DNA of 64,000 nucleotides from Halohasta salina (GCF_024178165.1 NZ_JAMZIE010000003.1:310001-374000); one strand, 5' to 3'. Counted from the first letter of the stretch, positions 1,328-56,633 are shown. Notes: generated from the sequence alone by a model not told the origin. Numbers and translations: made by a program.

Positions 1328-2155
1328 TCATCGGAACTGCACGTCGACGTGCGATTCCGGCAGGCTGGCCCGGTCGGCCGCGAGGTCGACGACGACCCGG
1401 GTATCGGTACGCAGCGTCTCGTTGACATTGAACCCGTCGGCGGCGAGCTGCCGCGCCCAGCCGTCGGCTCGCGGCGATTCGATCTGCAGCCGGAGATCAT
1501 CGCCCGCAACTGTACTGTTGAACACCGACTTCTTGATCCCGCGGGGGTCCCGTTCGCCGACGACGAGGACGGTCCGGTCGCCGCCGACGGCGGTCGTCTC
1601 GCCGCCCGGGTGGGTGGCGACCACCGGTACCACCGCTCGATCGTCGCTCGCAACGAACGGCGTCGACGAACGGGCGATGCTCCGACCGTCGTCGCTCCGG
1701 AAGACGACGCCGGCCTCGTAGACGACCCGGCTGCGGTCGCTCCGGTAGACCAGCGGCTCGAAGGAGACGTTGGTCTGGCGGTCGTTTACGAAGCCGCCGC
1801 CGTCCCACTGGCCGAGCGTGATCCGGACCGAATCGCCGGTGCCGAGGGTGCCGCTGGCCAGCCGGACTTCGGTCGCCCGGCTGGGGTCCTCGTAGCGCCG
1901 GAGGTCCGCGAAGTTGTCCCGGAGGACATCGAGGGCCCGCTCGACGTTGGTGACCTCCTCGGCGGCCTGTCGGTCCTCCAGCCCGGTGAAGCCGACGACG
2001 CTCACCGTCGAGATCGTCAGGATGACGAGCGAAAACACGAGGATGTAGCCCAGCGTCTCGCTGACCGCCCGCTGGTCGACGCCGAACCGGCGATCGGGTG
2101 GCGCTGTGCCGCCGGTCAACCGGCCGGCGGTGGTCGACCGTATCCGGTCAGTCAT
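1328..2155 (-). CDS. pilin-like protein, DUF7289-type (last gene of pil operon)
   Basis: A 275-residue protein with an N-terminal polar stretch, then RAVSETLGYI followed by a single hydrophobic helix (about residues 28-52). This is the class III (prepilin-type) signal layout, with the processing site just before the helix. The rest is a soluble, probably extracellular, beta-rich domain. It is the distal gene of the reverse-strand operon that begins with the PilB-type ATPase, and overlaps the preceding gene by eight bases. It resembles the haloarchaeal family labelled DUF7289. It is probably a minor pilin or pseudopilin; the exact role is unknown. Confidence 0.75.
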   Translation of the reverse strand: MTDRIRSTTAGRLTGGTAPPDRRFGVDQRAVSETLGYILVFSLVILTISTVSVVGFTGLEDRQAAEEVTNVERALDVLRDNFADLRRYEDPSRATEVRLASGTLGTGDSVRITLGQWDGGGFVNDRQTNVSFEPLVYRSDRSRVVYEAGVVFRSDDGRSIARSSTPFVASDDRAVVPVVATHPGGETTAVGGDRTVLVVGERDPRGIKKSVFNSTVAGDDLRLQIESPRADGWARQLAADGFNVNETLRTDTRVVVDLAADRASLPESHVDVQFR

Positions 2156-2621
2156 TGGTCACCTCCAGCCGGTCGGCCGTCGGGTCGTACTCGATCCGGA
2201 GCCGGCCGCCGCTGACGTTGGTCGGCTCGACCGGCACCCGCGTGGCGGCGTAGTCGACGGTCACCTCGACATCGGGGTTCGACCGGCGGAGCGTGATCGT
2301 CCCGTCGTCGACGGCGATCCGGTAGCCCGACCCGGCGACCCGCCGGGGGAGGTCGACGGTGTGGCCGACCGTCGGAGTGGTCCCGGTCGCGGCGGCGTCC
2401 TCGCGGGCGATCTGCGCCAGTCGGTCGGTCGAGCCGATCGCCGCGGCCAGTTGGTCGCCGACGACGGTCAACTGGTCGTCGGCGACCTGGCCCGACCGGC
2501 TCTCCATCAGCCCGCTTGCGCCCGCCAGCAGCGCCCCCATCAACAGCATGGCGACCCCCAGCATGAGCACGTAGCCGACGGTCACCGACACCGCCCGTCG
2601 GTCGACCCCAAACCGAGTCAT
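2148..2621 (-). CDS. pilin-like protein, DUF7266-type
   Basis: A 157-residue protein starting MTRFGVDRRAVSVTVGY, then a hydrophobic helix (about residues 14-36) and a small globular domain. The RRAVS-x-T-x-GY segment matches a class III signal peptide and closely parallels the RAVSETLGY of the following gene, so the two are likely processed by the same prepilin peptidase (PibD type, not in this window). Its start overlaps the previous gene by four bases (ATGA) and its end overlaps the next by eight. It resembles the haloarchaeal DUF7266 family. Likely a minor pilin or pseudopilin of the adjacent PilB/PilC machine. Confidence 0.75.
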   Translation of the reverse strand: MTRFGVDRRAVSVTVGYVLMLGVAMLLMGALLAGASGLMESRSGQVADDQLTVVGDQLAAAIGSTDRLAQIAREDAAATGTTPTVGHTVDLPRRVAGSGYRIAVDDGTITLRRSNPDVEVTVDYAATRVPVEPTNVSGGRLRIEYDPTADRLEVTND

Positions 2622-3511
2622 CGCGGCTCACCCGGTGCGACCCGCACCGTCGTCTCGAAGTCGACCTCGGGCGTCCGGTAGACCAGATCGATGGTCGCCG
2701 CGAAGACGACTGCCTCGGTGTCGACGGCCGCGTCCACGCTGTCGTACCCTCGGACGGTCGCCGCGAACGTGCCGTCGGCTGTCCCGCCGTTGACGATCCG
2801 AACGTCCTCGACGGTCGCTTCGGGCCACAGCCCCCGGTAGCAGTCGACTGTCGCGCTCCCGGCCGACAGTTGGTCGCCGGTGAAGTCGACCGTGGTCGGA
2901 TCGCTCTCCGGGATCGAACACTGCCGGCTGGGGCTGTGGGTCTCGTTGGCCGCGTCGACGACGACCGCACCGCCCTCTTCATAGACGTACCGGGTTTCGT
3001 TGCCTCCGGCGGTGACAAACCGGACGCCGAGGGCGTCGGCTTCGACGTCGGTCGGATCGGTTGGAAGCGAGCCGGCAGTGAGCGTGACGTTCCGGGCTTC
3101 GTCGACCCCTTCGACGACCGCCCAGTCGTTGCCGGTATCGAGGCTGTCGGCGGTGAGTCGTCGACCGTCGGTCGTCCCATTGAACGAGACGTTAGCAATG
3201 ACGCCCGCCCGCGCCTGCTGGCGGTCGACGAGCGGGCCCGTCGCGTTGATTCCGTCGGCGACGGCTGCGGGGTCGCCGCCGCCGCGGTTTTCGGTCCTGA
3301 TGAGGTCGGCAACGCCGTCGACGGCCTGCCCACGGAACGCGATGGCATCGCGGCTGTCGGCGGCGGTCTCGCGGGTGGCGACGTTCTCGGTGTAGACGGC
3401 GGCGTTCAACAGCAACGCGACCGTCAGCAGGATCACCGCCAGCGCCAGCGCCGTGATCAGCAGTAGCTGGCCGCGGTCGTCGCAGCCGAGCCGGTCGGTT
3501 ACATCCGCCAT
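2618..3511 (-). CDS. pilin-operon secreted/membrane protein, DUF7261-type
   Basis: A 297-residue protein. I place the start at the ATG at 3511, because the protein then begins MADVTDRLGCDDRGQ followed at once by a long hydrophobic helix (about residues 16-38), as in its operon partners; the open frame extends further upstream but only inside the preceding gene. This start overlaps the preceding stop by 13 bases. After the helix comes an extracellular-type domain with several Asn-X-Thr/Ser sites and two Cys. The RGQ sequence before the helix matches the other two non-canonical signal-like proteins of the operon. It resembles DUF7261. Probably a structural or assembly component of the pilus. 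Confidence 0.75.
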   Translation of the reverse strand: MADVTDRLGCDDRGQLLLITALALAVILLTVALLLNAAVYTENVATRETAADSRDAIAFRGQAVDGVADLIRTENRGGGDPAAVADGINATGPLVDRQQARAGVIANVSFNGTTDGRRLTADSLDTGNDWAVVEGVDEARNVTLTAGSLPTDPTDVEADALGVRFVTAGGNETRYVYEEGGAVVVDAANETHSPSRQCSIPESDPTTVDFTGDQLSAGSATVDCYRGLWPEATVEDVRIVNGGTADGTFAATVRGYDSVDAAVDTEAVVFAATIDLVYRTPEVDFETTVRVAPGEPR

Positions 3512-4092
3512 GTGGTGATGCGCACCTCCACCCGGTTGTAGAGTTGGCCGTCGTCGACGCTCGACGCGTAGAACGGCTCGGTCTCCAGCCGGCAATCACT
3601 GGTACAGTCGCCGGTGAGCCGGCTCTCGTTGGTGAGCGTGATCGTCCGGCTGGCGGTCACCGCGTTGTCGCTGGGCTGGCCCAGACTCACCAGCGGGTCG
3701 GTGCTCACGGCCGTCGCATTCGCATCGAAGTACCGCACCCGCACGTTGTAGGCGATCCGGCGCTCGGCGAGCGTCTCGTTGAGGGCGGCCAGAAACGCGG
3801 TCTGTGAGCCCGCCCGCTGGTAGTAGCCGGTCTCGCCGCTGTCCTGAAACGCCCCTCGGGAGGCGTTCCAGTAGAGCACCGTCTCCTGCAGCGAACCGTC
3901 GTCGGCCGCCGTCGACAACAACCCATCCGCAAGCGCCCGCTGTTGGTTCTCGATGTGCTGGTTCGAGGTGCTGGCCGACAGCGGCGTCACCGCCGTCGCC
4001 TGCATGGCGAACAGCAGCGCACTGAGCAACAGCAGTGCGGCGATAAACGCCTCGACGGTGTGGGCCTGTCCCCGGTCGACATCTCGGTTCAT
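3499..4092 (-). CDS. pilin-operon secreted/membrane protein, DUF7288-type
   Basis: A 197-residue protein starting MNRDVDRGQAHTVEAF, with a hydrophobic helix at about residues 14-33 and an extracellular-type domain behind it that has four Asn-X-Ser/Thr sequons and a closely spaced Cys pair (GDCTSDC). The helix sits at the N-terminus with one or two charged residues and RGQ before it and a Glu inside the first turn, the layout of prepilin-like signals, but without the RAVS consensus of haloarchaeal pilins. It lies one base downstream of the preceding gene. It resembles DUF7288. A minor pilin or pseudopilin is the best guess. Confidence 0.75.
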   Translation of the reverse strand: MNRDVDRGQAHTVEAFIAALLLLSALLFAMQATAVTPLSASTSNQHIENQQRALADGLLSTAADDGSLQETVLYWNASRGAFQDSGETGYYQRAGSQTAFLAALNETLAERRIAYNVRVRYFDANATAVSTDPLVSLGQPSDNAVTASRTITLTNESRLTGDCTSDCRLETEPFYASSVDDGQLYNRVEVRITTWRM

Positions 4093-4093
4093 G

Positions 4094-4606
4094 TTACCAC
4101 ACCTTCACCACCAGTCGGTACTGGCTGTCCTCGATCGAGACGATCCGGCTCGATACCGTGACGTCGGTCGGCGTCGACCCACCGGCCTCCCGCGTCAGCG
4201 GCCCATCGAACGCCACCGAATCGAGGTCGCTGCCGTCGACCGGGGGGCCGGTCCGCGGTGGGTCCGCGGGGTGGCGGAGCGTCACGTTGACCTCCCGGTC
4301 GCCGATCCCCAGCAGTTCGGTCGCCGGTGTGGCGGCGTCGAACCCGCAGTCAGCGCCGCTGACGTTCGTCGCGTTCATGAAGGCGGCCGTACAGGCCGGC
4401 GACAGGGTGCCGGGGGCCGCGGGGTCCGCCGCCAGCAGCGACCCCGAAAGGTGGTCGACCGCCCGGTCGGCGACGACCGGCGTGCTGCTGGCGGCCCCCG
4501 AAAACGGCTCGAAGATCGCGGGGACGAACGCGAAGACGACGCCGACGGCGATGATGAACACGCCCGCGCCGACCCCGAAATCGATCACCGTCTGGGCACG
4601 GTTCAT
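4094..4606 (-). CDS. pilin-operon secreted/membrane protein, DUF7287-type
   Basis: A 170-residue protein that starts MNRAQTVIDF and goes straight into a hydrophobic helix (about residues 10-32), followed by a small beta-rich domain with two Cys and a conserved-looking C-terminal strand ending RLVVKVW. Its start overlaps the PilC-type gene by four bases. The RAQ before the helix and Asp in the first turn mirror its two neighbours. It resembles DUF7287. In the operon it is the first of five single-helix proteins after the motor genes, so a pilin-like role is inferred from position and layout. Confidence 0.75.
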   Translation of the reverse strand: MNRAQTVIDFGVGAGVFIIAVGVVFAFVPAIFEPFSGAASSTPVVADRAVDHLSGSLLAADPAAPGTLSPACTAAFMNATNVSGADCGFDAATPATELLGIGDREVNVTLRHPADPPRTGPPVDGSDLDSVAFDGPLTREAGGSTPTDVTVSSRIVSIEDSQYRLVVKVW

Positions 4607-6633
4607 CCGACCACCACCCAGACCCCGAGGGCGATCGTCAGCAGGCCGACGACGAACTTCACGCCCGACAGCAGTTTCGCCGTCCGGATGTAGCCGGCGA
4701 TCAGCCCCGCCAACACCGCTTGGATCGTCACCGCGTGGAAGAACAGGAGCGAGAGGAGGTCGGCGTCGACGCCCTCGGCGAACTCCTGGCCGCCGCTGGC
4801 TTGGCCGCCGCCGCCCGAGGCCTGCTCGGTGAGGCCGGCCATCACGTCGATGAACTGGGTCTGGAGGATCGCCATCACCGCCAACAGCGTGAGGTAGGTC
4901 ATCAGGATGATCGCGACCTGCATTCGGGTCCGCGAGCGCCGCTCGCGGGCGATATCGTCGGCGTTCTCGCTGGCCTGGGCCGCCGTTCGAAGCACGTCGG
5001 TGATCTCACTGGAGGCCTCTTGGGCTTCGGTGATGAGCTTGATCGTCCGGGCCAGTCGGGGAAGGTGGTACTTGTTGTTGAACTCGACGAACGCCGCCCG
5101 GAGGCTCACCCCGTAGTTCACCTTGGCGTACATCACCTCGAACTCCTCGGCCAGCCGGCCGCTGGAGGTCTCGGCGACGGTCATAATGGATTCAAGGAGC
5201 GTCTGGCCGGTATCGTTGGCGCTCGATAGCTTCCGAAGGGTCTCCGAGAGCTTGCTCGTGATGGCGTTCCGCGAGTAGACGTTCCACTCGTAGAACGCAC
5301 CCAGCGGAACGAACACCAGATACGCCGGCAGGTAGATCCAGACGAAGGTGCTCCAGACGGGCCGGTTGATCCACGCCGGAATCGTCACCGGGGCCCGGCC
5401 GGTGCCGACGGCCACCCCGACTGCGAAAAGCGCCGCCGGCACCGTCAGCGCCAGTGTGAACAGCGGTCGGTCGCGGAAAAACAGGTGCGGAGCCTGAACC
5501 ACCTGTTTGAGCCGGTAGTCGCGCTCGGCGGCCCTGATCCGGTCGAACACCCGGAACCGGCCGACGAACCCCTCGACGATCCCCATGTGGGTCAGCCCGT
5601 CGTTGGTTGAGGCTGCCAGCCGGTCGCTGCCGGTCTGCGGTCGGAGGTAGCCGTCGCCGGGGTCGTCCTGTTTGACCGTCGAGACGAGGACGAGAAACGC
5701 CGCCCCGATCAGCGGGATCAGCGCGTAGACGGTGCCGTACAGCAGGCGCTCGTCGGCGTTGCCCAGCATGCTCATGATGACCAGAATGATCACGAGCAGC
5801 AGGGGAAACAGCGAGAGGGTCATATACATCTCGCCGAACAGTTCCAGGGTCTCTAAGGTCATCTCCTGTTGCTGTTTGGCCGTCCGCATGTGGGCGTCCT
5901 TCTTGTCCTTGAGGAACGACTCCATGTCGCCGCCGCTGTTGACGATCGACAGCATGTCGGTGAGGAACTGCGCCAGCGGATCGCTCGGCGTCTCCAGGGA
6001 CTGTTTGCGGATCGCGTTGCGGTAGTCCGTCCCGAAGTACTCCGTCTCGTTGACGATGCTCTGGAACTCCCGAGCCACCTCGCCGTAGGTGTCCTCGGCG
6101 GCGGCCATCGCCCGGAGGATCTCCAACTGATTGAGTCCACCGACCGACAGCGCGTACATAAACGAGATCGAATCCGGCAGCAGGATGTTGATGTTCCGTT
6201 TGCGCTCGCCCGCGCGCATGTACGGCAACCCGACCAGCCCGCCGAATCCGAGGCTGAAACCGACGCTCCCGAAGACGATCCCCGCCAACCCGACGGTCAC
6301 CGGGACGACAAGCGCCCGGAGCAACTCGGCGACCGCCGGCGAGGAGACCGGAATCCCGAGGCTCAGCCCCGAGGGGTCGACCAGTCCGAAGGCGAAGAGC
6401 CCGTAGCCCAGCAGCGTCCCGACGAGCCACAACACCCCACCGACGATGACGCCGACCCCCAGCGCCCGCGAGAGGTAGTGTTCGACTGTATCGCCCATCC
6501 GGGCCTCGGTGAGTTTGGTTTCGAGGTCGCCGGCGAAGTCGCTGTTCTCGCCAAACAGCAGCCGGTAGAGGGGGTAGAAGGCGTCGGCGAGCGGGTCGGT
6601 CTCCTGCTGCGGCCCGCCGGTTTCGAGGCTCAT
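4603..6633 (-). CDS. pilC3: type IV pilus platform protein, PilC/TadC family
   Basis: A 676-residue polytopic membrane protein with two copies of the type II secretion system F domain (cytoplasmic helical bundles at about residues 165-270 and 450-570), separated and followed by groups of hydrophobic helices; the last helices reach the C-terminus. The second copy has the typical LRTAAQASENAD and MYAKVNYG stretches. In archaeal pili this protein anchors the ATPase to the membrane and the growing filament. It begins one base after the stop of the PilB-type gene. By operon content it corresponds to the PilB3/PilC3 type of Haloferax; the number in the symbol is by analogy. Confidence 0.88.
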   Translation of the reverse strand: MSLETGGPQQETDPLADAFYPLYRLLFGENSDFAGDLETKLTEARMGDTVEHYLSRALGVGVIVGGVLWLVGTLLGYGLFAFGLVDPSGLSLGIPVSSPAVAELLRALVVPVTVGLAGIVFGSVGFSLGFGGLVGLPYMRAGERKRNINILLPDSISFMYALSVGGLNQLEILRAMAAAEDTYGEVAREFQSIVNETEYFGTDYRNAIRKQSLETPSDPLAQFLTDMLSIVNSGGDMESFLKDKKDAHMRTAKQQQEMTLETLELFGEMYMTLSLFPLLLVIILVIMSMLGNADERLLYGTVYALIPLIGAAFLVLVSTVKQDDPGDGYLRPQTGSDRLAASTNDGLTHMGIVEGFVGRFRVFDRIRAAERDYRLKQVVQAPHLFFRDRPLFTLALTVPAALFAVGVAVGTGRAPVTIPAWINRPVWSTFVWIYLPAYLVFVPLGAFYEWNVYSRNAITSKLSETLRKLSSANDTGQTLLESIMTVAETSSGRLAEEFEVMYAKVNYGVSLRAAFVEFNNKYHLPRLARTIKLITEAQEASSEITDVLRTAAQASENADDIARERRSRTRMQVAIILMTYLTLLAVMAILQTQFIDVMAGLTEQASGGGGQASGGQEFAEGVDADLLSLLFFHAVTIQAVLAGLIAGYIRTAKLLSGVKFVVGLLTIALGVWVVVG

Positions 6634-9573
6634 CTACCCCTCCTCGTCGGGGTCGACCCCGTCGATCCCCCATCCTTCGGCCGACGCCTCGTCGTCAGCC
6701 GACGGCTCCGTCGGGTCGACGAGCGACGACTCCTCGACCGGCTCTCCCTCCGCGTCGAGATAGGCGTCGAAGGGGTTGTCGGCCGCCTCGGCCGGCTCGT
6801 CGACCTCGCTGTCTTCGGTCGCTGTGGGGGTGTCGGTTGCGTGACGATCCGTCTTCGATCCCTCGCTCTCCGCGCCGTTGACGCCGGCCGCCTCGTCGAG
6901 GTCCGGTCCTGCGGCATCGGGATCCGGTCCCGTGGCATCGGACCCCGCTTCGGGGACATCGAGCATCCCGTCGAGGGCCTCGCTAATCGAGGCGCCCGCT
7001 CGGCCGCGGTACTCCTCGAAGAGTTCCTCGCCGGCTTCGAGGATCTCCGTGGCGATCGCCTGCTGTTCCTCGCCGGGATCGGGCCGGGGAACCAACGCCT
7101 CGGTCTCGGGGTCGACGTCGATCAACACGGACTCCATCTCCCGGAGGTCTTCGAGGCTCGCTTCCAGTTGATCGTTGGCCATCAGCGCGAGGATCGTATC
7201 GGGGTCGTTGATGTAGGCCTGCACCGTCGCGGCGACCTGCGTGTAGGTGTTGAGCCCGCGGTCGATCAGGTAGGCCAACACGAGCCGGCGCTCGAACAGC
7301 TCGCTTTTGAGTTCCGCGTCGGTCCAGCCGCGGTCGAACTTGATCTCTTCGAGGGTATTCGAGGTCCCCATCTTCAGGAACTCGTCGCCCTCGGCCTGCC
7401 ACTGGTAGATGTCTTGGACGTTGATCTCGTCGTTCTCGGCGTCGTAGTGGTTGATCTCGGTGAGCGATTTGGTCCGGCGGACCTTCTTGCCGCGAACGCG
7501 GGTCGACGTCTGGATCGACACGAGGTCGAGCGCCGAGAACATCGTCTTCGAGACGTTGATTGGCTGGGTTGTAAACCGCTTGAGCACCTCCCCCACGGAG
7601 TCGGCGTGGAACGTCGTGTAGGTCGTGTGGCCCGTCGACATGACCTGAAACAGCGTCCGGCCCTCTTCGCCGCGGATCTCGCCCATCACGATGTAGTCGG
7701 GTCGCTGCCGGAGGGCGGCCTCCAGCAGGTCGAACTCGTCGATGTCGCCCTTGTCGCTCTCGGTGAACGACGGTCGCGTGACCGAGGCGATCCAGTTGCG
7801 CTGGGGGAGTTCGACCTCGCGTGTATCCTCGATCGAGACGATCTTGGTGTTCGATGGAATGAACAGGGAGACCGCGTTCAGCGAGGTGGTCTTCCCCGAG
7901 GCCGTCCCACCGGCGAAGATGAGCGATTTGTCGTTTTCGATGGCCAGCCAGAGGAACGCCATCTGGTCCAGCGAGAACGTCTTCCAGTTGATGAGGTCGA
8001 CCGGCGTAAAGGGGACCTCCTTGAACTGTCGGATCGTGTAGTTGGTCCCGTGGTCCGAGACCTCTTTGCCGAGGGTGAGCTGGGCCCGTGAGCCGTCGGG
8101 GAGGGTGGCGTCGACCTGCGGGCTGCGCTTGGAGACGCCCTTGCCGGAGCGCTGGGCGAGTTTGACGACGAAGTCGTCGAGGTCGCCCTCGCCGTGGATG
8201 ACGTTGGTGATGATCTGTTCGTAGCCGGAGTGGTAGACGAACACGGGGGAGTTGTAGCCGTCACAGGAGATGTCCTCGACGTTGATGTCGTGTTTGATCG
8301 GGTCGATTCGCTCGTAGCCGAGGAAGTCTCGCTGGAGGTAGTACAGCAGCTTTTCGACCTGATACTCGGTGAGCGATTCGGGGTCCTCGGCGAGCACTGC
8401 CGGCTCGGGCCGGGCGGCGATCCCGTCGAGTTCCCCGGTCGCGTCGTCGGTCTCCTCTGCGGGGGCGAGGCCGACGCTCGCCAGCAGTTCGCCCACCTCG
8501 CTGTCGGGATCGAGGTCGACGCGGTAGGCCTCGGGGTCGAGCCGGTCGGGGACGAGCCGCTCGTGGAGCGGCGGCCGGTCGTCGGTCCCGCCGCTGCGGT
8601 CCCGCGAGGCGAGATGCTCGCCGTAGTGGGTGCCGGCAGCCCGCGAGGGGGTGGTCTCCTCGTCGGTTTCCAGATCGTCGAACAGCCCTTCCAGCTGGCT
8701 GATGGGCTCTTCGAACCGCTCGACGACGGCTTCGGTGCGGTCCAACAGTCCGTTGAGCCGGTCGACGACCACCGGTGGGAGATCGGCCAGCCGCTCGATC
8801 GCCGAGCGGTCGCTGCCGGCGTCGTAGAGTCCGTATCGAGCCAACAGTCGGTCGGTCTCGGCTTCGATCACCGCCCGGCGGGCCTCGGTGTCGGCGGCCT
8901 CGGCTCCCTGTTCGCCGTACTTGATCGCGGTCCGGAGCTTGCCGGTCAGAAAGGTCGCGATATCGGTCTCGATCTCGTTGCGGTAGGGCTCGACGACGTA
9001 GTATTTCGTCTCGTTTTCCTTGGTCGACCGGAAGATGATCACGAACGCGTAGGGCTCGTTGACCCAGTAGCGCTCGACCTCGGTGAAGTGGGTCTTCTTT
9101 TCGATCGGCACCGCCTTTTCGAGGTCGTAGCGGTTCACCAGCGTCGTCGACCCCTCGTCGGTCGTGAAAAAGGCGTCCTCGTCGAGGTCGTCGTGGACGT
9201 CGACCGTCCGCTCGTCGACGAGGTCGGCCAGTCGCTCGGCGGTCTCCGCGCCGCCGGCCAGCATCGAACCGAGGGAATCGGGGTCGAAGCCCAGCGCCTC
9301 GCCCTCGTCGAAGGGGACGACTTCGCCGTCGACCCGCGGCGGCGAGCCGTCGGGCTCGTAGTAGTATGCGCGTTTGTAGTGCTCCCACGACCACACCCCT
9401 TTGACGACCGGCGTGGTCGACGGATCGCGGAGCGATTCGACGTACGCATGGAGGCGACCGGCCCGCTCGGCGGCGTGTTCGACCGCTCGGCGGGGCTCGT
9501 CGGTCGGCGACGGCTCGGCCGACCCGGTGCCCGACTCGGCCTGCCCGGGGACATCGGCCTCGTCGACTGCCAT
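6634..9573 (-). CDS. pilB3: type IV pilus/secretion ATPase, PilB type (long form)
   Basis: A 979-residue ATPase, far longer than the 573-residue paralogue at 33912. The core runs from about residue 400 to 800: LLYYLQRDF and VEDISCDGYNSPVFVYH, Walker A GGTASGKTTS near residue 550, Walker B region with VMGEIRGEEG near 625, then the His box GHTTYTTFHAD. An N-terminal region of about 390 residues is acidic and partly ordered (ERYWVNEPYAFVII), and the last 120 residues are low-complexity and rich in Asp, Glu, Ala and Pro. It powers pilin assembly or retraction at the inner face of the membrane. It is the first gene of a seven-gene operon. Confidence 0.92.
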   Translation of the reverse strand: MAVDEADVPGQAESGTGSAEPSPTDEPRRAVEHAAERAGRLHAYVESLRDPSTTPVVKGVWSWEHYKRAYYYEPDGSPPRVDGEVVPFDEGEALGFDPDSLGSMLAGGAETAERLADLVDERTVDVHDDLDEDAFFTTDEGSTTLVNRYDLEKAVPIEKKTHFTEVERYWVNEPYAFVIIFRSTKENETKYYVVEPYRNEIETDIATFLTGKLRTAIKYGEQGAEAADTEARRAVIEAETDRLLARYGLYDAGSDRSAIERLADLPPVVVDRLNGLLDRTEAVVERFEEPISQLEGLFDDLETDEETTPSRAAGTHYGEHLASRDRSGGTDDRPPLHERLVPDRLDPEAYRVDLDPDSEVGELLASVGLAPAEETDDATGELDGIAARPEPAVLAEDPESLTEYQVEKLLYYLQRDFLGYERIDPIKHDINVEDISCDGYNSPVFVYHSGYEQIITNVIHGEGDLDDFVVKLAQRSGKGVSKRSPQVDATLPDGSRAQLTLGKEVSDHGTNYTIRQFKEVPFTPVDLINWKTFSLDQMAFLWLAIENDKSLIFAGGTASGKTTSLNAVSLFIPSNTKIVSIEDTREVELPQRNWIASVTRPSFTESDKGDIDEFDLLEAALRQRPDYIVMGEIRGEEGRTLFQVMSTGHTTYTTFHADSVGEVLKRFTTQPINVSKTMFSALDLVSIQTSTRVRGKKVRRTKSLTEINHYDAENDEINVQDIYQWQAEGDEFLKMGTSNTLEEIKFDRGWTDAELKSELFERRLVLAYLIDRGLNTYTQVAATVQAYINDPDTILALMANDQLEASLEDLREMESVLIDVDPETEALVPRPDPGEEQQAIATEILEAGEELFEEYRGRAGASISEALDGMLDVPEAGSDATGPDPDAAGPDLDEAAGVNGAESEGSKTDRHATDTPTATEDSEVDEPAEAADNPFDAYLDAEGEPVEESSLVDPTEPSADDEASAEGWGIDGVDPDEEG

Positions 9574-46909: not shown

Positions 46910-47314
46910 CTACAGTTCGGTTTTCGCCCGGTGGGCCAGTAGAACGGTCCGGATCCGGTTGGCCAGGACGTCCATCTCGCCGGTCGCCTGATCGCCCTTG
47001 TAGACGAACTCCGCGACGCCGGCCTCGATGGCCTCCCGCGCCAGCGGTTCGAGTGCTCGCCCGGTCAGGATGATCAGCGGCACCGACGGAATCTCGGGGT
47101 CGTCCAGCGATTCGGCCAGTTCGACACCGCTCTCGTCGGGCAGCTCGTAGTTCGAGATCATACAGTCGTAGGAGCCGTTTTTCAGCGCGTTCCGCGCCTC
47201 GTCGGCGGTGCTGACCGTCGTGATCACGAACTCGTGGGCCGACTCCAGAGTCTCGACGACCTTCGTCGCCATGAAGTTGCTGTCCTCGACGAGCAGGACG
47301 TGCGGTGTGTTCAT
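46910..47314 (-). CDS. receiver-domain protein lacking the phospho-acceptor Asp
   Basis: A 134-residue single receiver domain. Most of the fold's key residues are there: acidic pair ED in LLVEDSNFM (near residue 10), Thr in LIILTGRA (near 84) and Lys in FVYKGDQ (near 106). At the phosphorylation position, however, the sequence reads MISNYELPD near residue 55, with Asn (codon AAC) where haloarchaeal receivers usually have SDY. So the domain is either phosphorylation-independent or signals by binding. It lies 28 bases downstream of an AT-rich promoter region. Confidence 0.88.
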   Translation of the reverse strand: MNTPHVLLVEDSNFMATKVVETLESAHEFVITTVSTADEARNALKNGSYDCMISNYELPDESGVELAESLDDPEIPSVPLIILTGRALEPLAREAIEAGVAEFVYKGDQATGEMDVLANRIRTVLLAHRAKTEL

Positions 47315-47371
47315 TTGCCGGCTGTCCGTACTACTCCCACTAATAAATATAACATTCGCGCTATCGTGATA

Positions 47372-48685
47372 CTACTCGATGTCGACATTCCCGTCGGGGC
47401 CGATCCGGATGACGATGTCGAACGCCGAGGTGATCGTCTCGAGTTCGGTGTCGGTGTGGGCTCTGGGATTCATGTGGTAGAACCCCATCACGCCTCTGGA
47501 GTTGAGTTGGCCTTTGAGTGTAAAGAGGAACTGGAACATGGTCTCGTTGCCGACGTACTGCTGGATCGCCGACAGCGTGTGGACGCCGACGACCGTCGGG
47601 CGGCGTTCGTCGTCCCACTGGGAGACGATGTGGCTGATGTTGACGCCCAGTTTAGCGAGGTGTTTGAGGTTCGAGATGTTCTTGTAGATGTCCAGCCGCC
47701 GGGTGGGGTCCGGCCCCGCGCCCGGCTCGCTCGGTCGGAGGCCACTTCTGCCGACCTCGATGACGGCCGTCTTCCCCCCTGCCCACGCCGGGACCTCCTC
47801 GGCGGCGGCCAGCTGGTCGTCGACGGTCCCTGTCGCCGAGACGAACAGCACGTTCTGGCCGGAGCCGTCGTCCGGCACCAGAAACCGGCGGTAGATCTCG
47901 TTGGTGATCGAGTGGGCTGTCGGGCTCAGCAGCAACACCTGCGAGGAGGCGGTCGCCCGCCCGAAGGCGTCGATGTTGTTGAGGATCTGATCGATCGTGT
48001 CGGCCTGTGTCGACCGACTCGCCGAGCCGGCTGATCGGCCGGTATCGTCCCGGTCGGTGTCGGCTTCCCCGCCGGTAACCCGGTGTGAGATCCGATCGAG
48101 GACGCTCCTGAACGACGAGCCGCCCCCATCGTCGCCTCCGTCCACGTCGCTCTCGTCGCCGCGCTCGTCGCCGCTCGTGGCCGCCGGCTCCGTGCCGAAC
48201 TCGAAGTCGGTCGCCTGTTCGGCCACGTCGGTCCCCGCTCCTCCGGTCTGCCGGTCGGTCGGCTCGGTCGTTCCAGCCGACCCGGTGTCGGACGGTTCGG
48301 CCGGCGTCGACCAGTCCGGGCCATTCGTGTCGGGTTCCCCGGCATCAGTGGTGGTCGGCTCTCCCGCCTCCGTCCCGTTCGGCGGCTTCCCGTCGGCCGT
48401 CGGCTCCGCGTCGGTTTCCGGATCGGTCGACGAACCGAAACTGTCCCAGAGTCGGTCCTCGGGATCGGCGGCTTCGTCGGGCTGGGGCCGAGCATCGCCG
48501 GTGTTTTTGTCCGCCGCCGACCGGTTGCCGCCACCGCCGGTCACGGCGTCGGTATTGTCGCTGCCCCCGGTTGTGGCGGCGGGCGTCTCGTCGACCGGTT
48601 CGTCGTCCTCCAGCCGGTCGAGAAACGCGTCGATCCGGGCGTCGTCGATCGGCTCCTCGTCGTCTGGCTCTGATTCGTTACTCAT
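47372..48685 (-). CDS. DUF7504-like RecA-fold protein with long acidic N-terminus
   Basis: A 437-residue protein. I use the ATG at 48685 (MSNESEPDDEEPID). Residues 1-220 are low-complexity and acidic (Asp, Glu, Thr, Gly, Pro). Residues 225-437 form a RecA/KaiC-like domain: SQVLLLSPTAHSITNEIYRRFL, VLFVSATGTVDDQLAA, RPTVVGVHTLSAIQQYVGNETMFQFLF and VIRIGPDGNVDIE. There is no Walker A lysine, so it is a non-hydrolysing member, consistent with DUF7504. Such proteins are linked to haloarchaeal signalling. It follows the receiver gene on the same strand. Confidence 0.7.
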   Translation of the reverse strand: MSNESEPDDEEPIDDARIDAFLDRLEDDEPVDETPAATTGGSDNTDAVTGGGGNRSAADKNTGDARPQPDEAADPEDRLWDSFGSSTDPETDAEPTADGKPPNGTEAGEPTTTDAGEPDTNGPDWSTPAEPSDTGSAGTTEPTDRQTGGAGTDVAEQATDFEFGTEPAATSGDERGDESDVDGGDDGGGSSFRSVLDRISHRVTGGEADTDRDDTGRSAGSASRSTQADTIDQILNNIDAFGRATASSQVLLLSPTAHSITNEIYRRFLVPDDGSGQNVLFVSATGTVDDQLAAAEEVPAWAGGKTAVIEVGRSGLRPSEPGAGPDPTRRLDIYKNISNLKHLAKLGVNISHIVSQWDDERRPTVVGVHTLSAIQQYVGNETMFQFLFTLKGQLNSRGVMGFYHMNPRAHTDTELETITSAFDIVIRIGPDGNVDIE

Positions 48686-48760
48686 ACTCGGGTGGCCGGC
48701 AGTCGGTTCCTCGGGCGATACCGCGGCGGCCCGCCCCATATTGTCGGGTCGACACCGGGA

Positions 48761-49801
48761 TCACCAGTTGGTCTGATAGTCGGGGCCGCCGGACTCCCGA
48801 TCGGTCGGCTGGCGTTCCGGTCCCGTCCCGCCGGGCTGGCCGCCGGCGGGCTCGATGGGACGGTCGGTCGTCTGGAGTTTGTCGTTGGAAAACGGCAGCC
48901 AGCCGCCCTTCGTGATGCCGGTGAACCGCTGTTCGCAGCTCGGACACTCCGGGGCCTCCAGCAGCCCGAGGTCGATCGTTTGGCCGCAGTTGTCGCAGTC
49001 GGCGGCCTCGACCCCGTGGCGGATCGCCTCCTGTTTGAGATCGGCGAGCTCCTCCTGTTTGGCGAACTGCTCGCGGATGGGTGCCAGCGCCTCCTGTCTG
49101 GCGTCGCTGACCGCCCCGAGACGGTACTCGATGTTGTCGGTGGTATCCAGTAGGTGTTGGAGTACCTGCTCGATGCTGTCGAACTCCGACTCCAGCCGGC
49201 GTTCGAGTTCGGCGTGATCGGCCTCCGTCCGCTCGACGGCCGCCTTCAGCTCCGACAGCGACATCCCTTCGCTGAGCCGGCGTTCGACCGTCGAGAGCCG
49301 CTCGTCGACCGCCTCCAGCCGGTTGTCGAGCCGGTCGATGGTGTCGTCGGTCTCGGTCTGTCGGTCGACGACCGCCGACGAGAGGTCGTCGAGCTGTCCT
49401 TCGAGGGCCGACAGCTCCTCGTTACCGGCCTCGTCGGCGTCGGTATCCCGCTGGTCTCCCGACAGCTCTTCGATCGCTCCGCGGAGTCCCTGGAGCTCGG
49501 TTTTGAGTTCGGAGAACTCCGCGGTCGACGACCGGTCGTCGTCGGCCGCTCCGCCACCGGCGGCCGTACGGTCCCCCGACTCCATCCCCGGCTGCCCCTC
49601 GCCGTGTCGTGGCTCGTTGGCCACCTCGGAGTCGGTAACGACCCCCGAGAGTTCCTCGAGGACCCAGTAGGACGACAAGATCTCGTCGAGCAACTCCTGT
49701 TTGGAGACGCCCTTCTGTCTGGCCGTTTCGGCCACCCACTCCTCGAGGGCCTCGGAATCGAACCCGTGAGCGCCGCCAACTGGAGAGGAGTCGTTCGACA
49801 T
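48761..49801 (-). CDS. coiled-coil zinc-ribbon protein of unknown function
   Basis: A 346-residue protein. The N-terminal 50 residues (EALEEWVAETARQKGVSKQELLDEILSSYWVLEEL) look like a ribbon-helix-helix or helical regulator. Residues 95-255 are strongly coiled-coil, with Leu/Glu/Arg heptads (ELKTELQGLRGAIEEL, TIDRLDNRLEAVDERLSTVERRL). A zinc ribbon follows: DCDNCGQTIDLG and APECPSCEQRF near 262-290. The C-terminus is disordered (Pro/Gly/Thr). It lies upstream of the DUF7504-like gene with a 75-base gap. A scaffold that holds a partner at a membrane or on DNA is a guess. Confidence 0.65.
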   Translation of the reverse strand: MSNDSSPVGGAHGFDSEALEEWVAETARQKGVSKQELLDEILSSYWVLEELSGVVTDSEVANEPRHGEGQPGMESGDRTAAGGGAADDDRSSTAEFSELKTELQGLRGAIEELSGDQRDTDADEAGNEELSALEGQLDDLSSAVVDRQTETDDTIDRLDNRLEAVDERLSTVERRLSEGMSLSELKAAVERTEADHAELERRLESEFDSIEQVLQHLLDTTDNIEYRLGAVSDARQEALAPIREQFAKQEELADLKQEAIRHGVEAADCDNCGQTIDLGLLEAPECPSCEQRFTGITKGGWLPFSNDKLQTTDRPIEPAGGQPGGTGPERQPTDRESGGPDYQTNW

Positions 49802-50231: not shown

Positions 50232-51290
50232 ATGTTAGCCCGACTGAAGCTCCACGTCTCGAATCACGGCACGGAGCTGGCGATCGGCTGTCTCCTCGCC
50301 GCGCTGCTGCTGTTCGCCGGGGCCGGACAGGTGTATACGACCCCCCAGTACGAGCAGCCACCGCCCGAGGAGGTCGACAGCTACGATATCGAACTCGCCG
50401 TCACCGAGAGTGCGGTCGTCCAGCGGGACAACCCGCTGTACGAGACGGGTACTCGGTTGGAGTCGCGGCCGGCCTACTTCGCGAACTTCACGCCGGAACT
50501 CCAACTGTCGGCGGCCGTCGACGGTTCCGACAGCCGGAACGTGACGCTGCGCCAGCGGTTGATCCTCCGCGAGGAGGCCACCAGAGACGGCTCGGAGCTC
50601 TGGAGCCGCGAGCGGCTGCTGGCGAGTCACAGCGAGACGATGACCGATGGCGAGACCCAGCTCAACACCACCCTCGACGTCGAGGACCTCGGGAGCGACC
50701 AGAGCGACGTCCGGTCGGCGCTCGGCTCGCTGGCGGGGATCACCACCACCCTTCGGATCGAGACCACCTACGAGACCGAGCCCGTCGAAGGCGAGTCCTA
50801 CGAGGGGGATCTGGATCTCGAGTTGACCTTCGAGTCGACCAGCAACGCCTACTGGCTGTCGGGGACCCGTACCGCCAGCGACTCCGAGACCAGAGTGGCC
50901 CGGCCCGACCCGGTCCCCCAGCCGCCGAACTACACCCTCGTCGGGCTGTTGGGGCTTGCCGGCGTCGGCATGGTCGGACTCGCCGGCGTCGTCGTCCACA
51001 AATCGCGGGGGTACGATCCACAGCAGCTCCGGATCGATCTCTACAACGAGGAGTACGGCGAGTGGATCTCCAAAGGCGAGTTGGTCGTCGACCCCGACAA
51101 GCGGTACGTCTACGTCGACTCGCTGGGCGACCTCGTCGATATCGGGATCGACGCCGACAAGCGGGTGATCCACGACAGCGATCTCGGGGCCTACGTCGTC
51201 GTCGACGACGATCTGGTCTACTACTTCTCCCGGGAGTCCACCGACATCGAACTGTGGGCGAACGTCGGCAGCGCCTCGAAGGCCGACTAA
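50232..51290 (+). CDS. DUF5305-like membrane protein with extracellular beta domain
   Basis: A 352-residue protein starting MLARLKLHVSNHG, with a signal-anchor helix (about residues 17-32), a beta-rich extracellular domain of about 190 residues (IELAVTESAVVQRDNP, LRQRLILREEATRDGSELW, LRIETTYETEP) and a second membrane helix (about 237-257), then a cytosolic tail of 95 residues (YVYVDSLGDLVDIGIDADKRVIHD). It resembles DUF5305, a family often encoded next to archaeal signal peptidases. It is convergent with the signal peptidase gene here; their stops overlap. Confidence 0.8.
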   Translation: MLARLKLHVSNHGTELAIGCLLAALLLFAGAGQVYTTPQYEQPPPEEVDSYDIELAVTESAVVQRDNPLYETGTRLESRPAYFANFTPELQLSAAVDGSDSRNVTLRQRLILREEATRDGSELWSRERLLASHSETMTDGETQLNTTLDVEDLGSDQSDVRSALGSLAGITTTLRIETTYETEPVEGESYEGDLDLELTFESTSNAYWLSGTRTASDSETRVARPDPVPQPPNYTLVGLLGLAGVGMVGLAGVVVHKSRGYDPQQLRIDLYNEEYGEWISKGELVVDPDKRYVYVDSLGDLVDIGIDADKRVIHDSDLGAYVVVDDDLVYYFSRESTDIELWANVGSASKAD

Positions 51291-52393
51291 CGCTGGGTCG
51301 ACCGCATGGTGATCGGTCGGATCCCGACGACGACCGCGTAGACCGCCACGACGGGCGTCGTCGACAGCACTGCGATCGTTATCATGGGCAGATACGGGTG
51401 GATCGCAGCCAGCAGCCCGATAACCGGCAGCGGGAGGACATGGAAGTAGTGGTGTTCAGTGTACGACCGGGCGAAGGGCCCGGTTTCGACCGGAACGTCG
51501 ACCCTCATCGTGACCGACGCGCGTTCCCCGGTCTCGAGCGTCAGTTGCTGGGTGTCGATGTCGATACCGTCTCCGACCGGTTCGACGATGACCACTTTCG
51601 GGACGACTCCCTCGTTCTCGACGGAGACGGAGAGTTCCTCGGTCTCGCCGGCGGGGACTCGTCCCTGCCCGTCGGCCACCGAGGGGTCCGCACTCAGGAG
51701 GTTGGTCGTCGTCATTCCGCTCGGCAGGACCATCCCTGTCAGCACCGGCAGCGACAGCATGACGACGAGTCCGATCACCACCAGCCGACCGCTGATAACG
51801 CCGTCCCGTCGGGTCGACCGGCTCGTCGGCCGTTTCGCGTCGTCGGTCACGAAGCCGTACAGCAGCGTGACCGTGATCAACACGACCCCGAAGCCGGTCG
51901 TCGCGGCTCCGACCCGGGCCCCGCTGTCGAGGCCCAGGAGTCCGATTACAGATCCGAACCCGCTTTGGACGAACAGCGCCGCGTGTCCGATCGACGGCAG
52001 TGCGACCACCTCGCCGTCGACCTGGAGGACGACCGCGTAGATCTGGGCGTCGGTCACCGGCGGTTCGCCGGCATCCTGATCGGTAAAGGAGTTGGCGTCA
52101 CCCTGCGTGATGTAACCCTGTGCCGTTTGGTCGATTACTCGGTGTGTCGTCGGTCCCCCGCCGTCGATCGACTGGGCCTCGAAGGTAACTACGTCGCCGG
52201 AGTCGATCTCCCCCGCCAACAGGGGCGGCATCGCGACGAACCCATCGCCAACCCCGAGCGTCGGCTCCATGCTCCCCGTCGCAATGTACCCCAGCAGGAA
52301 CGGCTGGCCGAGTAGTTCGCCGATCACCATCACCGCCGCTATCCCGACCAACACCACCGTGATCGCCCGCTGGACGGTCGACGAGACACCCAT
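51287..52393 (-). CDS. signal peptidase I (archaeal/SipW type) with extra beta-sandwich region
   Basis: A 368-residue protein. I take the ATG at 52393 (MGVSSTVQRAITVVL). The catalytic part is the first 140 residues: helix, then IATGSMEPTLGVGDGF with nucleophile Ser41, THRVID with catalytic His84 (the archaeal/ER type uses His instead of Lys), and QGDANSFTDQDAGEP for the Asp ligands. After two more helices there is a beta-sandwich-like segment (about 255-315, SVSVENEGVVPKVVIVEPVGDGID, ASVTMRVDVPVE) and a final membrane pair. Usual archaeal signal peptidases lack this extension. Confidence 0.88.
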   Translation of the reverse strand: MGVSSTVQRAITVVLVGIAAVMVIGELLGQPFLLGYIATGSMEPTLGVGDGFVAMPPLLAGEIDSGDVVTFEAQSIDGGGPTTHRVIDQTAQGYITQGDANSFTDQDAGEPPVTDAQIYAVVLQVDGEVVALPSIGHAALFVQSGFGSVIGLLGLDSGARVGAATTGFGVVLITVTLLYGFVTDDAKRPTSRSTRRDGVISGRLVVIGLVVMLSLPVLTGMVLPSGMTTTNLLSADPSVADGQGRVPAGETEELSVSVENEGVVPKVVIVEPVGDGIDIDTQQLTLETGERASVTMRVDVPVETGPFARSYTEHHYFHVLPLPVIGLLAAIHPYLPMITIAVLSTTPVVAVYAVVVGIRPITMRSTQR

Positions 52394-52738
52394 TGATTCA
52401 CACCTCGGACCGACGGCCCACAGTCGGCCTACGTCCGAACATCTTCTTACTCGAAAATACTGTATCTTCCGACTCGACCACCCGCCGAGCACCGTCAGCA
52501 ACCGGTCTGACCGTTATCGGTCGACGACTGGGTCGACCGGTCGGCTGATAGCCGAAACCAGTAACTGATCTGTCTTGTACTATCTGTCATAGCGAAATGG
52601 AACTCAACGCACACATGTTTCCTAATATTGTCTTTCAAACTAAATACTAATATTCTGAGCGGATCAGAGTAAATGTCTGCATGTTAATGAAAGATAGAAG
52701 CTATTATATATATCGTGTACAAAGAAAGTCACCGTAGC
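52394..52738. other. 345-bp AT-rich intergenic region with strong TATA box
   Basis: From about 52560 the sequence becomes strikingly AT-rich for this genome. It holds two copies of CTAATATT (52622-52629 and 52647-52654), an inverted pair CTGA...TCAG near 52655, and TATTATATATAT at 52702-52713, about 32 bases before the ATG at 52739. The region between 52394 and 52560 shows no gene on either strand. A transferred or specially regulated promoter region is likely. Confidence 0.6.
52702..52713 (+). promoter_or_regulatory. TATA box of the Tat-exported protein gene
   Basis: TATTATATATAT is centred about 32 bases upstream of the ATG at 52739, giving a very short or absent leader. The extended TATA and AT-rich flanks suggest strong expression. 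Confidence 0.6.
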
Positions 52739-53530
52739 ATGAATAGGCGTAACTTCGTGGTGGGACTTGGGACAGTCGCTACCTTGAGTGGTGTGGCATC
52801 GGTTACCGCGGCGTCGTTCGCGTCCAGTACGACCGCGAGCACGAACTTCTCGATCGTCGCCTTGGAGGGCAACCTCGTCCTTCGGCGACTGCAGAGCACG
52901 CTCCCCGGTGGGAGCGACCCCAGTAACTACAGCGAACTGGCCGACACGACCGACGCGTGGAACGAATCCGCGATCACGGACTTCGGCAACGTGACACGTG
53001 AGAGCAATCAAAACAACTCGGTGGTCGCATACGTCAACGATAACACCAACGACAATCTGGAGGCCGACCTCGCCTTCGAGGCTCGGAACACGACGTACAC
53101 CGAGTATACTGATAACGAAGCCAACGGTAACTACGGGTTCTTCGAGCTCGCCAACCTCGGTGAGACACAGGAGTCGGTCTCGATGACGTTCGGGTACAAC
53201 TCCGACAACGTCGCCCAGAACGATACCGATACCGGCACAAGTACTGGCGACCCGCCTCTCTCGGAGGCCGACGTCGCTGAAATCTTCACGTTCACTGCGG
53301 ACGGGAAAGACATCTCCCCGAATCCCGATACTCCGCGAGAGCCTGGAGACACAGTGTCGCTCGACGCGGGACAGGTTGTCACCGTCGAACTGGAGATCTC
53401 CATGACCGAATCGCAGGCCAGCAACGTTCAGGACGTGGCTGGTTCGAGCCCCTTCGGTGGTGGCCTCGACGAGTACAGCTTCCAGCTCATCGACAGCGTC
53501 ACAGTCGGCAGCGACTTCACCAGCCCATAA
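52739..53530 (+). CDS. Tat-exported Asn/Thr-rich beta protein (DUF1102/TasA-like candidate)
   Basis: A 263-residue secreted protein. The N-terminus MNRRNFVVGLGTVATL carries a twin-arginine motif (RRNFVV) and a signal ending near VTAASFA. The mature part is all-beta in character, rich in Asn, Thr, Ser, Asp and Glu, with many sequons (NYS, NES, NVT, NNS, NTT, NDT) and no cysteine. It contains FFELANLGETQESVSMTFGY and GDTVSLDAGQVVTVELEI, which resemble DUF1102 and TasA/camelysin-like fibre proteins. Signal peptidase I is upstream and divergent. The ATG at 52739 is chosen for the Tat signal. Confidence 0.7.
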   Translation: MNRRNFVVGLGTVATLSGVASVTAASFASSTTASTNFSIVALEGNLVLRRLQSTLPGGSDPSNYSELADTTDAWNESAITDFGNVTRESNQNNSVVAYVNDNTNDNLEADLAFEARNTTYTEYTDNEANGNYGFFELANLGETQESVSMTFGYNSDNVAQNDTDTGTSTGDPPLSEADVAEIFTFTADGKDISPNPDTPREPGDTVSLDAGQVVTVELEISMTESQASNVQDVAGSSPFGGGLDEYSFQLIDSVTVGSDFTSP

Positions 53531-53533
53531 TCA

Positions 53534-53570
53534 CCGGTTTCACGACCGGCGGTCGACCTTCTTTCTATTT
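53534..53570 (+). terminator. hairpin plus pyrimidine tract after the Tat-exported gene
   Basis: CCGGT-TTCACG-ACCGG forms a five-base-pair stem just after the stop at 53528-53530, and CCTTCTTTCTATTT (53557-53570) follows as a T-rich tract. Archaeal termination depends mainly on the T-tract, which fits here. Confidence 0.5.
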
Positions 53571-54501: not shown

Positions 54502-54960
54502 ATGAACAGGCTCCACCCTCGGATCAGGCTCGTTTGGATCTTTCGGGCGGTGGCGCTGGCGGCCGTCGTTGGCGCGGTCGGCGTCGGGCTGGCGGTCTTT
54601 TTCGAGGTCTCGCCCCGGCTCCCGCTCGGGCTGGCGCTGGTGGTCGTCGTCGTCGGGGTCGTCCACGCGATCCTGCGGTACCGCAACTGGCGGTACGTGG
54701 TTCGGGAGGACGCGATCTATCTCGAACGCGGCGTGCTCACCGAGGTCAGGACGGAGGTACCGCTGGTCCGGATCCAGCACGTCGACTCCCGGCGGTCGGC
54801 CTTCGAGCGGCTGGTCGGCCTCGCCCGGACGGTCGTCTACACCGCGGGTTCCCGCGGCGCTGACGTGACGATTCCGGGACTGACGCCGGGGGATGCCGAC
54901 GGGTTGCGGACCCGGCTCAAGCGGCTGGTGATCGACACCGACGGGGAGGATGCCGTGTGA
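54502..54960 (+). CDS. bacterial PH-domain membrane protein, YdbS-like
   Basis: A 152-residue protein with two close hydrophobic helices (about residues 13-55, with a short loop) and a bPH2 (PH-like) domain at about 60-140: YRNWRYVVREDAIYLERGVLTEVRTEVPLVRIQHVD. It resembles YdbS, one of two related PH-domain proteins encoded side by side in many bacteria and archaea. Function unknown; a membrane- or lipid-related scaffold is likely. Its stop overlaps the start of the YdbT-like gene as GTGA. Confidence 0.88.
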   Translation: MNRLHPRIRLVWIFRAVALAAVVGAVGVGLAVFFEVSPRLPLGLALVVVVVGVVHAILRYRNWRYVVREDAIYLERGVLTEVRTEVPLVRIQHVDSRRSAFERLVGLARTVVYTAGSRGADVTIPGLTPGDADGLRTRLKRLVIDTDGEDAV

Positions 54961-56633
54961 AACTGGCTTCGACGTCGATCCCCTACCGCGCCCTCCAGAA
55001 GACGTCGACGATCGCCATCTCGGCGGTGTTCATCGCATCGATCGGGACCGCCGGCCTCGGGCTCCCCGCGCTGGGGGCGGTCATCGCCGGCGGATTCCTC
55101 CTCACGCTGGGCTACGAGGTCGCCTACTACCGCCGCTTCGAGTACGAACTCACCGAGGACACCCTCGACATCCGGTCGGGGGTGTTCAACCGCCGCGAGC
55201 GGGAGATTCCCTACGGCCGGATCCAGAACGTCGACTCCAGCCGAAACGTCTTCCAGCGGCTGGTCGGCCTCGCCGCGGTCAGCATCGAGACCGCCGGCGG
55301 GGGGTCGACCGAGGCCGCCCTGCAGTACGTCACCCCCTTCGAGGCCGAGCGGCTTCAGTTGGACATCCGCCGGGCCAAACGCGGCGAGTCGCCGACCGGC
55401 AACGCCGACACCGGTGCGGCCGACGCGGGGACGGGGGAGACGACGGCGGCCGAGGGGTCGTCGACCGCCGCCGGCACGAGCGTCGACCGCGAGGCCATCG
55501 ACGAGGAAGAGGAGGTGTTGTTCGAGATCGCCCCCTCGGAGTTGGCGCTGGCGGGGATCCTCTCCTTTGATCCTCGGGTTCCGGGGGCTATTCTCGCGCT
55601 GTCGACGGGGTCGGTCCCGTTCGTCTCGCCGCTGATCCCGATCGATGCCCCGCCGCTGGTGCTGGTCGGCCTGCTGGCGCTGCTGGTGGCTGCTGGCGTC
55701 GTGTTGGCCTGGGTCGTCGGTGCGCTCTCGGCGGTCGTCAATTATTGGGGGTTCCGGCTCACCCGCTCGGCCGACGAACTCCGGTACGAACGCGGGCTGT
55801 TGCAGCGCTACAGCGGCACCATCCCCTTCGACAAGATTCAGGCGATCACGATCACCGATAACCCGCTGAAACGGCGGGCGGGGTACGCCACGCTGGTCGT
55901 CGAGACCGCCGGCTACGCTCCCGGCCAGAGTGGCAGCCGGGGGAGTGAGGCCGCCGTCCCCATTGCCGGCCGCGGTCGGATCGACCGACTGGCCGACGAG
56001 ATCGAGGCCTGCGACGCCGGCCGCTTCGAGCGGCCGCCGAAACGCATCCGTCGGCGGTATCTGGTTCGGTACCTCCTCGGACTCGGCGTGATCGTCGGCC
56101 TCCTCTACGGCGGGGCGGTGCTGTTCGCCTCGCCTGACGCGGTGCCGTGGCCCCTCCTTGCGATCGCGGCGCTGTCGACCCCGCTGGCGGCCCACTACAA
56201 GTGGGTCCACCGCGGCTACCGGCTCGGAGAGGATCATCTGGTTACCCGCAATGGCTTCTGGTCCCGCGAAACCAAGCGGGTCGCCTACTACCGGATTCAG
56301 ACGGTGATCGACACCCGGACGATCTTCCAGCGCCGGTGGTCGGTGGCGACGGTCACTGCCGATACGGCGGGCTCGCTGTCGATCCTCGGCACCGACGCCG
56401 CCGCCGTCGACATCGACCAGCGCGATGCCGACCGACTCCGAGCCGACCTGACCGACCGGCTCCGAACCGCCCTCGCCGAGCGCCGCCGTCAGCGGCGCGG
56501 CCGCTCGTTTTTCTTCGACAACGTCGAGCCAACTGGCGAGCCACCCGCAAACAACGAGCGAGCCGCCGACGAGTCCCCGGACGGTGCCGATCCTGATGCG
56601 GGTTCTGACGACGGTCGTGAAACCGGGCGGTAG
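54957..56633 (+). CDS. bacterial PH-domain membrane protein, YdbT-like
   Basis: A 558-residue protein with three PH-like modules, each preceded by hydrophobic helices: YELTEDTLDIRSGVFNRREREIPYGRIQNVD near 60, FRLTRSADELRYERGLLQRYSGTIPFDKIQAI near 265, and YRLGEDHLVTRNGFWSRETKRVAYYRIQTV near 420. An acidic loop of about 40 residues separates the first two. It ends in a long acidic tail. A GTG codon at 54957 is the start and overlaps the stop of the YdbS-like gene. The pair probably forms a membrane complex of unknown role. Confidence 0.88.
   Translation: MKLASTSIPYRALQKTSTIAISAVFIASIGTAGLGLPALGAVIAGGFLLTLGYEVAYYRRFEYELTEDTLDIRSGVFNRREREIPYGRIQNVDSSRNVFQRLVGLAAVSIETAGGGSTEAALQYVTPFEAERLQLDIRRAKRGESPTGNADTGAADAGTGETTAAEGSSTAAGTSVDREAIDEEEEVLFEIAPSELALAGILSFDPRVPGAILALSTGSVPFVSPLIPIDAPPLVLVGLLALLVAAGVVLAWVVGALSAVVNYWGFRLTRSADELRYERGLLQRYSGTIPFDKIQAITITDNPLKRRAGYATLVVETAGYAPGQSGSRGSEAAVPIAGRGRIDRLADEIEACDAGRFERPPKRIRRRYLVRYLLGLGVIVGLLYGGAVLFASPDAVPWPLLAIAALSTPLAAHYKWVHRGYRLGEDHLVTRNGFWSRETKRVAYYRIQTVIDTRTIFQRRWSVATVTADTAGSLSILGTDAAAVDIDQRDADRLRADLTDRLRTALAERRRQRRGRSFFFDNVEPTGEPPANNERAADESPDGADPDAGSDDGRETGR

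Follow-up and report, generated by a model that had tools for sequence, protein, structure and literature searches.

Gene content of the locus

We examined a window of 64,000 nucleotides from Halohasta salina (NZ_JAMZIE010000003.1:310001-374000) and found that the three adjacent genes originally predicted at 50232-53570 are all present there, encoding a DUF5305 membrane protein, an extended signal peptidase and a predicted fibre protein (Table 1). The peptidase gene is convergent with the DUF5305 gene, with a 4-base overlap of the stops, and divergent from the fibre gene (minus versus plus strand); because the peptidase lies on the minus strand, the trio is not one operon. The first product matches PF17231 (124 bits, cut-off 29), and a reading of the sequence gives its topology as an N-terminal membrane helix, an external beta-rich part, a second membrane helix and a conserved cytoplasmic tail.

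Table 1. Features of the fibre locus and its upstream neighbours, in window coordinates.
Feature	Position	Strand	Evidence
DUF7504 protein, possible regulator	47372..48739	-	PF24336 E 8.5e-25
Coiled-coil protein with C-terminal zinc-ribbon-like motif	48761..49801	-	homologues adjoin fibre loci L104, L105, L106, L108
DUF5305 membrane protein, 352 aa	50232..51290	+	PF17231 E 5.7e-36
Extended SipW/ER-type signal peptidase I, 368 aa, start ATG at 52393	51287..52393	-	TIGR02228, NF046067, structure match
Peptidase external beta-sandwich domain (residues 226-317)	51443..51718	-	AF2 pLDDT ~95; VIA Z 6.2-8.1
TATA-like box TATTATATAT	52702..52711	+	box and spacing kept in same-genus genome
Predicted TasA/AbpA/Tafi-type fibre subunit, 263 aa	52739..53530	+	profile and fold matches
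Fibre protein signal peptide, RR motif, predicted cut near VTAA/SF	52739..52813	+	invariant residues in relatives

A second genome of the same genus (G173, locus L104) keeps the same three-gene arrangement, with identities to the window of 64% for DUF5305, 58% for the peptidase and 48% for the fibre protein. The exact trio in its divergent arrangement is found in this genus only and is therefore lineage-specific. Between the two genomes the peptidase-fibre intergenic region has diverged, with the exception of TATTATATAT, which lies exactly 37 nt 5' of the fibre ATG in both; the AT-rich promoter proposed for the fibre gene is thus real, box and distance having been kept.

Upstream of the trio, a minus-strand stretch (46910-49801) contains a response regulator gene and the DUF7504 and coiled-coil genes. 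The coiled-coil gene is a recurring neighbour of the window's fibre sub-type only, and DUF7504 genes are present at L104 and L105 and more weakly at L053, L106 and L108; as both recur at other loci of the fibre sub-type, their products may regulate it. On the far side of the trio (54502-56633, plus strand), two genes located 3' of an inositol-monophosphatase-like gene encode membrane proteins that carry bacterial PH (bPH_2) domains. This pair is syntenic in G173 and its genes are not obviously members of the module.

The extended signal peptidase and its DUF5305 partner

The peptidase matched the archaeal signal peptidase I model TIGR02228 with 49 bits (E 5.8e-13), slightly below the cut-off of 51.85, and the SipW model NF046067 with 32.9 bits (E 4e-8), where the cut-off of 190 bits was not reached. 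Residues Ser41, His84 and Asp99 are invariant across 45 sequences, and Ser-His-Asp is the catalytic set expected of SipW/ER-type S26 signal peptidases. In the AF2 model (mean pLDDT 85), a membrane helix (residues 3-27) is followed by the catalytic domain (33-122) and by helices up to residue 183. Further on come another helix, in the membrane (202-222), the beta-sandwich (226-317, pLDDT ~95) and a final membrane helix (335-356). The catalytic part aligned with human SPC and Streptococcus SipA at Z 10.8 in structure comparison and, with both the catalytic Ser-His-Asp and the signal peptidase fold in place, the enzyme is a SipW/ER-type signal peptidase I (S26). It carries ~200 extra residues, and the AF2 model and profile matches bear out the earlier description of a signal peptidase I with an added beta-sandwich and helices. 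A PDB sequence search with the peptidase alone returned chance matches only, and a PF10502 search of its own genome, which yielded no match at E 1e-3, is uninformative.

Judging from the topology, the extra sandwich probably sits outside, beside the active site. Its match list (residues ~219-341) is dominated by MSP/PapD-type domains at Z 6-8, with 8.1 for the best row, and includes the pilus chaperones Caf1M, YadV, PapD, CupB2, FaeE and FimC (Z 6.2-6.6). Since the scores are middling and the fold is widespread, this predicted likeness to PapD-type chaperones serves as a lead only.

We found the extended peptidase in 206 of 293 haloarchaeal genomes (E <1e-20; 196 with E <1e-90) and DUF5305 in 211. 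Both occur together in 204 genomes, the peptidase alone in 2, DUF5305 alone in 7 and neither in 80 (Fisher P 9e-61, a value inflated by the kinship of the genomes, which leaves the scarcity of exceptions unaffected). The pair is usually adjacent, beside DUF1102-type secreted proteins, and in a sample of 26 pairs the DUF5305 gene lies on the same strand, 414-551 bases after the peptidase (match to match). DUF5305 had no match in 14 control genomes, Bacillus subtilis included. The near-perfect co-occurrence suggests that DUF5305 is a near-obligate partner of the extended peptidase. Neither DUF5305 nor DUF1102 is mentioned in the papers of the literature searched, and the machinery itself, a peptidase fused to an external MSP/PapD-like sandwich and nearly always paired with DUF5305, appears to be undescribed there.

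The canonical locus in haloarchaea and other archaea

The canonical form of the locus is ordered as a DUF7344 regulator, two to four DUF1102-like secreted proteins, sometimes a polytopic protein, the peptidase and DUF5305. The secreted proteins share the motif GTGAF(T/S)xVxAxR and match Pfam DUF1102 (for example E 1.9e-10 and 2.8e-43). The peptidase has a pilin-type gene within 8 kb at 36 of 42 haloarchaeal loci, four of the six misses being loci truncated by contig ends, and at 12/12 loci in another archaeal family; most, not all, of the loci in these counts were picked by peptidase. In a phylum-wide sample, the peptidase was found outside the haloarchaeal order in two families (f21 and f41, the former possibly Archaeoglobaceae and with genomes of 1.1-2.2 Mb). 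Its neighbours there are proteins with strong DUF1102 matches (E down to 2.8e-43), a DUF7344-type regulator and DUF5305.

Over 170 positions, the DUF1102-like family (A4) aligns at E 9e-30 with the pilin in PDB entry 9P0A, 'Structure of Natrinema sp. J7-2 Tafi pilus' (released 2025-07-23). The matched part of this pilin is encoded with 100% identity in genome G159, ~1.5 kb upstream of the peptidase and DUF5305; the regulator gene stands on the other side of the intergenic region. Because the 9P0A pilin is encoded there, the canonical peptidase-DUF5305 locus is the Tafi pilus locus. Literature searches for the Tafi structure, Natrinema pili and TasA in haloarchaea returned no paper on the Tafi structure.

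Two further protein types accompany canonical loci. The polytopic membrane protein (cluster c2; L044 6241-7146, L047 5451-6284 and relatives) is without a Pfam match, has rhomboid-protease-like motifs (HxxxN, GxSG, HLLGF) and is often encoded directly 5' of the peptidase. Large DUF1102 proteins (L044 4770-6209 and L128 8959-10527) combine an N-terminal DUF1102 with further domains, lectin-like/CARDB in the haloarchaeal protein and VWA in the second family, and are candidate fibre-tip adhesins.

The Halohasta salina genome holds several copies of the module: the window copy, a canonical locus divided between contigs C21 and C22, and two near-identical loci (C18, C1). At the split locus, the two contig ends fall exactly within the canonical peptidase gene (L102 113-748, L103 193-774). 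The near-identical loci (L100, L101) have the order DUF1102-type protein, diverged peptidase, DUF1102-type protein, DUF5305, and are a recent duplication of a third module form. The window trio is a divergent satellite copy of a pilus locus whose canonical form is present in most haloarchaea. Gene co-occurrence, one of the checks proposed at the outset, did not refute the fibre reading: the association of peptidase, DUF5305 and pilin-type gene is kept across haloarchaea and beyond, the exact trio occurring in the same genus only.

Sequence and predicted fold of the fibre protein

The fibre protein starts with MNRRNFVVGLG, a twin-arginine before a hydrophobic stretch that constitutes a predicted Tat motif. 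R3, R4, G9 and A25 are invariant in 12 relatives, and the predicted cut site aligns with GTGA/F, the corresponding motif in the Tafi-type family. The mature protein lacks Cys; Ser (11.4%), Thr (11.4%) and Asn (9.3%) are abundant, as is Asp, and there are 7 N-glycosylation sequons and a pI of ~4.05. Composition and RR start are those of the Cys-free, Asn/Thr-rich protein with a Tat signal that had been predicted. As to the DUF1102/TasA-like motifs, a direct match to Pfam DUF1102 (PF06510) is absent at the curated cut-off, and the link is visible only from profile to profile.

Direct search found close relatives in 4/293 haloarchaeal genomes; the protein's profile reaches more genomes, and by comparison of positions many of the weak matches fall on DUF1102-like genes near peptidases. 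In profile-profile comparison, the fibre family (A3) scored 98.4% against the Tafi-type family (A4) at full length, 97.7% with the signal peptide alone and 92% with the mature part alone (83.5% with the nine closest members only). The score of the mature part led us to reject a profile link resting on the signal peptide only. Directly, A3 against the 9P0A pilin was marginal (E 0.84), and a PDB sequence search with the fibre protein alone returned chance matches only. The protein is thus tied by profile to the solved Tafi pilin in two steps, from A3 to A4 and from A4 to 9P0A.

The AF2 model of the fibre protein is weak (mean pLDDT 57, pTM 0.64), with a core up to 88 and residues 1-35 unstructured. 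The top VIA rows for this model were AbpA (7UEG; Z 7.0, 133 aligned, 3.9 A), the Sulfolobus thread Saci_0406 (7PNB; Z 6.8, 140 aligned, 3.6 A) and Tafi (9P0A; Z 6.5, 130 aligned, 3.8 A), although a Z of ~7 is barely higher than the 6.4 reached by unrelated beta-sandwiches. AbpA was also the first Foldseek match (E 0.03). TasA was not among the structural matches, which is uninformative as only Foldseek's best 1000 chains were aligned. Structure prediction had been put forward as a check of the fibre reading, and best matches to archaeal donor-strand pili, at middling Z, are consistent with it.

The peptidases adjoining the window's fibre sub-type form a single clade (1 change, 0/5000 shuffles; base support only 0.53), a result that persists after the same-genus tip is dropped and that would fit a dedicated enzyme-substrate pair. 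The extended enzyme could instead be a general second signal peptidase, with unrelated secreted neighbours merely travelling along, and its closeness to the general archaeal model TIGR02228 (49 bits) speaks for this; we nevertheless regard it as highly improbable, given the almost exceptionless pairing with DUF5305, the pilin-type genes adjoining the peptidase in two archaeal families and the match between peptidase clade and pilin sub-type.

A putative export and assembly module

We consider it very probable that the trio works as a compact unit dedicated to exporting, trimming and anchoring a TasA/AbpA/Tafi-type surface fibre; homology supports the predicted existence of a dedicated export and maturation system. 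The fibre pre-protein would be exported, probably via Tat as its RR motif suggests, and the adjacent extended peptidase would remove the signal next to the A-S/F site, near VTAA/SF. The freed N-terminal segment may serve as the donor strand completing the next subunit's beta-sandwich, with subunits presumably polymerising outside the membrane in the manner described for TasA (PMC9674648) and for the Sulfolobus thread (PMC9715654). The probable task of DUF5305 is to anchor the base of the fibre or to keep the assembly site in place.

Alternatively, the exported protein could stay monomeric as a component of a surface coat or matrix, or could be a minor or cap subunit of the canonical pilus, with the peptidase and DUF5305 only processing and tethering it. 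Such a role is suggested by its length (263 aa) and divergence from the canonical pilin, by loci L106 and L108, where the sub-type protein adjoins other DUF1102-type proteins with one common peptidase, and by Bacillus TapA, a TasA-locus protein acting as a minor chaperone-like subunit (PMC10151520). We judge it unlikely, however, since in the window's genus the module contains no other fibre-type gene and this one has a strong promoter to itself, and since the fold matches are major subunits.

A fibre-forming subunit would be of a type already known, the locus being a divergent variant of the archaeal TasA-like pilus. With Tafi of Natrinema sp. J7-2 it shares the secreted family, by profile, and the locus type with peptidase and DUF5305; the window protein belongs to a divergent sub-type, its locus has a divergent gene arrangement, and whereas the Tafi locus includes DUF7344, the window locus is without an adjoining DUF7344 gene or a tip-type DUF1102-CARDB gene. 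Bacillus TasA is a beta-sandwich fibre subunit with a dedicated SipW-type peptidase alongside, and the window peptidase resembles SipW in its match to the SipW model. That model, with 189 positions, has no room for the external beta-sandwich; the haloarchaeal subunit differs further in its Tat-like signal, and DUF5305 is unmatched in Bacillus subtilis. AbpA and the Saci_0406 thread, the top fold matches, have no sequence match to the window protein. Donor-strand assembly has been described for TasA (PMC9674648, PMC10151520) and, together with signal peptidase I processing, for the Sulfolobus thread (PMC9715654), where a general signal peptidase is invoked rather than a dedicated extended enzyme.

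The peptidase's extra domain resembles the PapD-type fold of the chaperone-usher chaperones PapD, Caf1M, FimC and FaeE (Z 6.2-6.6), a likeness at generic-fold level, and would differ in being fused to a membrane peptidase. Tentatively, and with considerable doubt, we suggest that the peptidase might be a membrane-tethered cutting-and-chaperone machine, whose PapD-like domain would catch the freshly cut pilin, fill its open groove and, with DUF5305, pass the subunit to the fibre base. If so, one membrane protein would do the work of bacterial periplasmic chaperones and ushers. More broadly, the module names likely machinery by which archaeal cells start, control and anchor donor-strand-exchange pili (TasA/AbpA/Tafi), and the window's satellite copy, as the smallest form of the set, is tractable for reconstitution in a haloarchaeal host.

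The window also contains an apparent archaeal type IV pilus cluster (1328-9573, minus strand), recognised from the ORF list only, in which several small proteins whose N-termini look pilin-like come after large ATPase-like and membrane proteins. We set these type IV pilus-like genes at 1.3-9.6 kb aside as a separate system.
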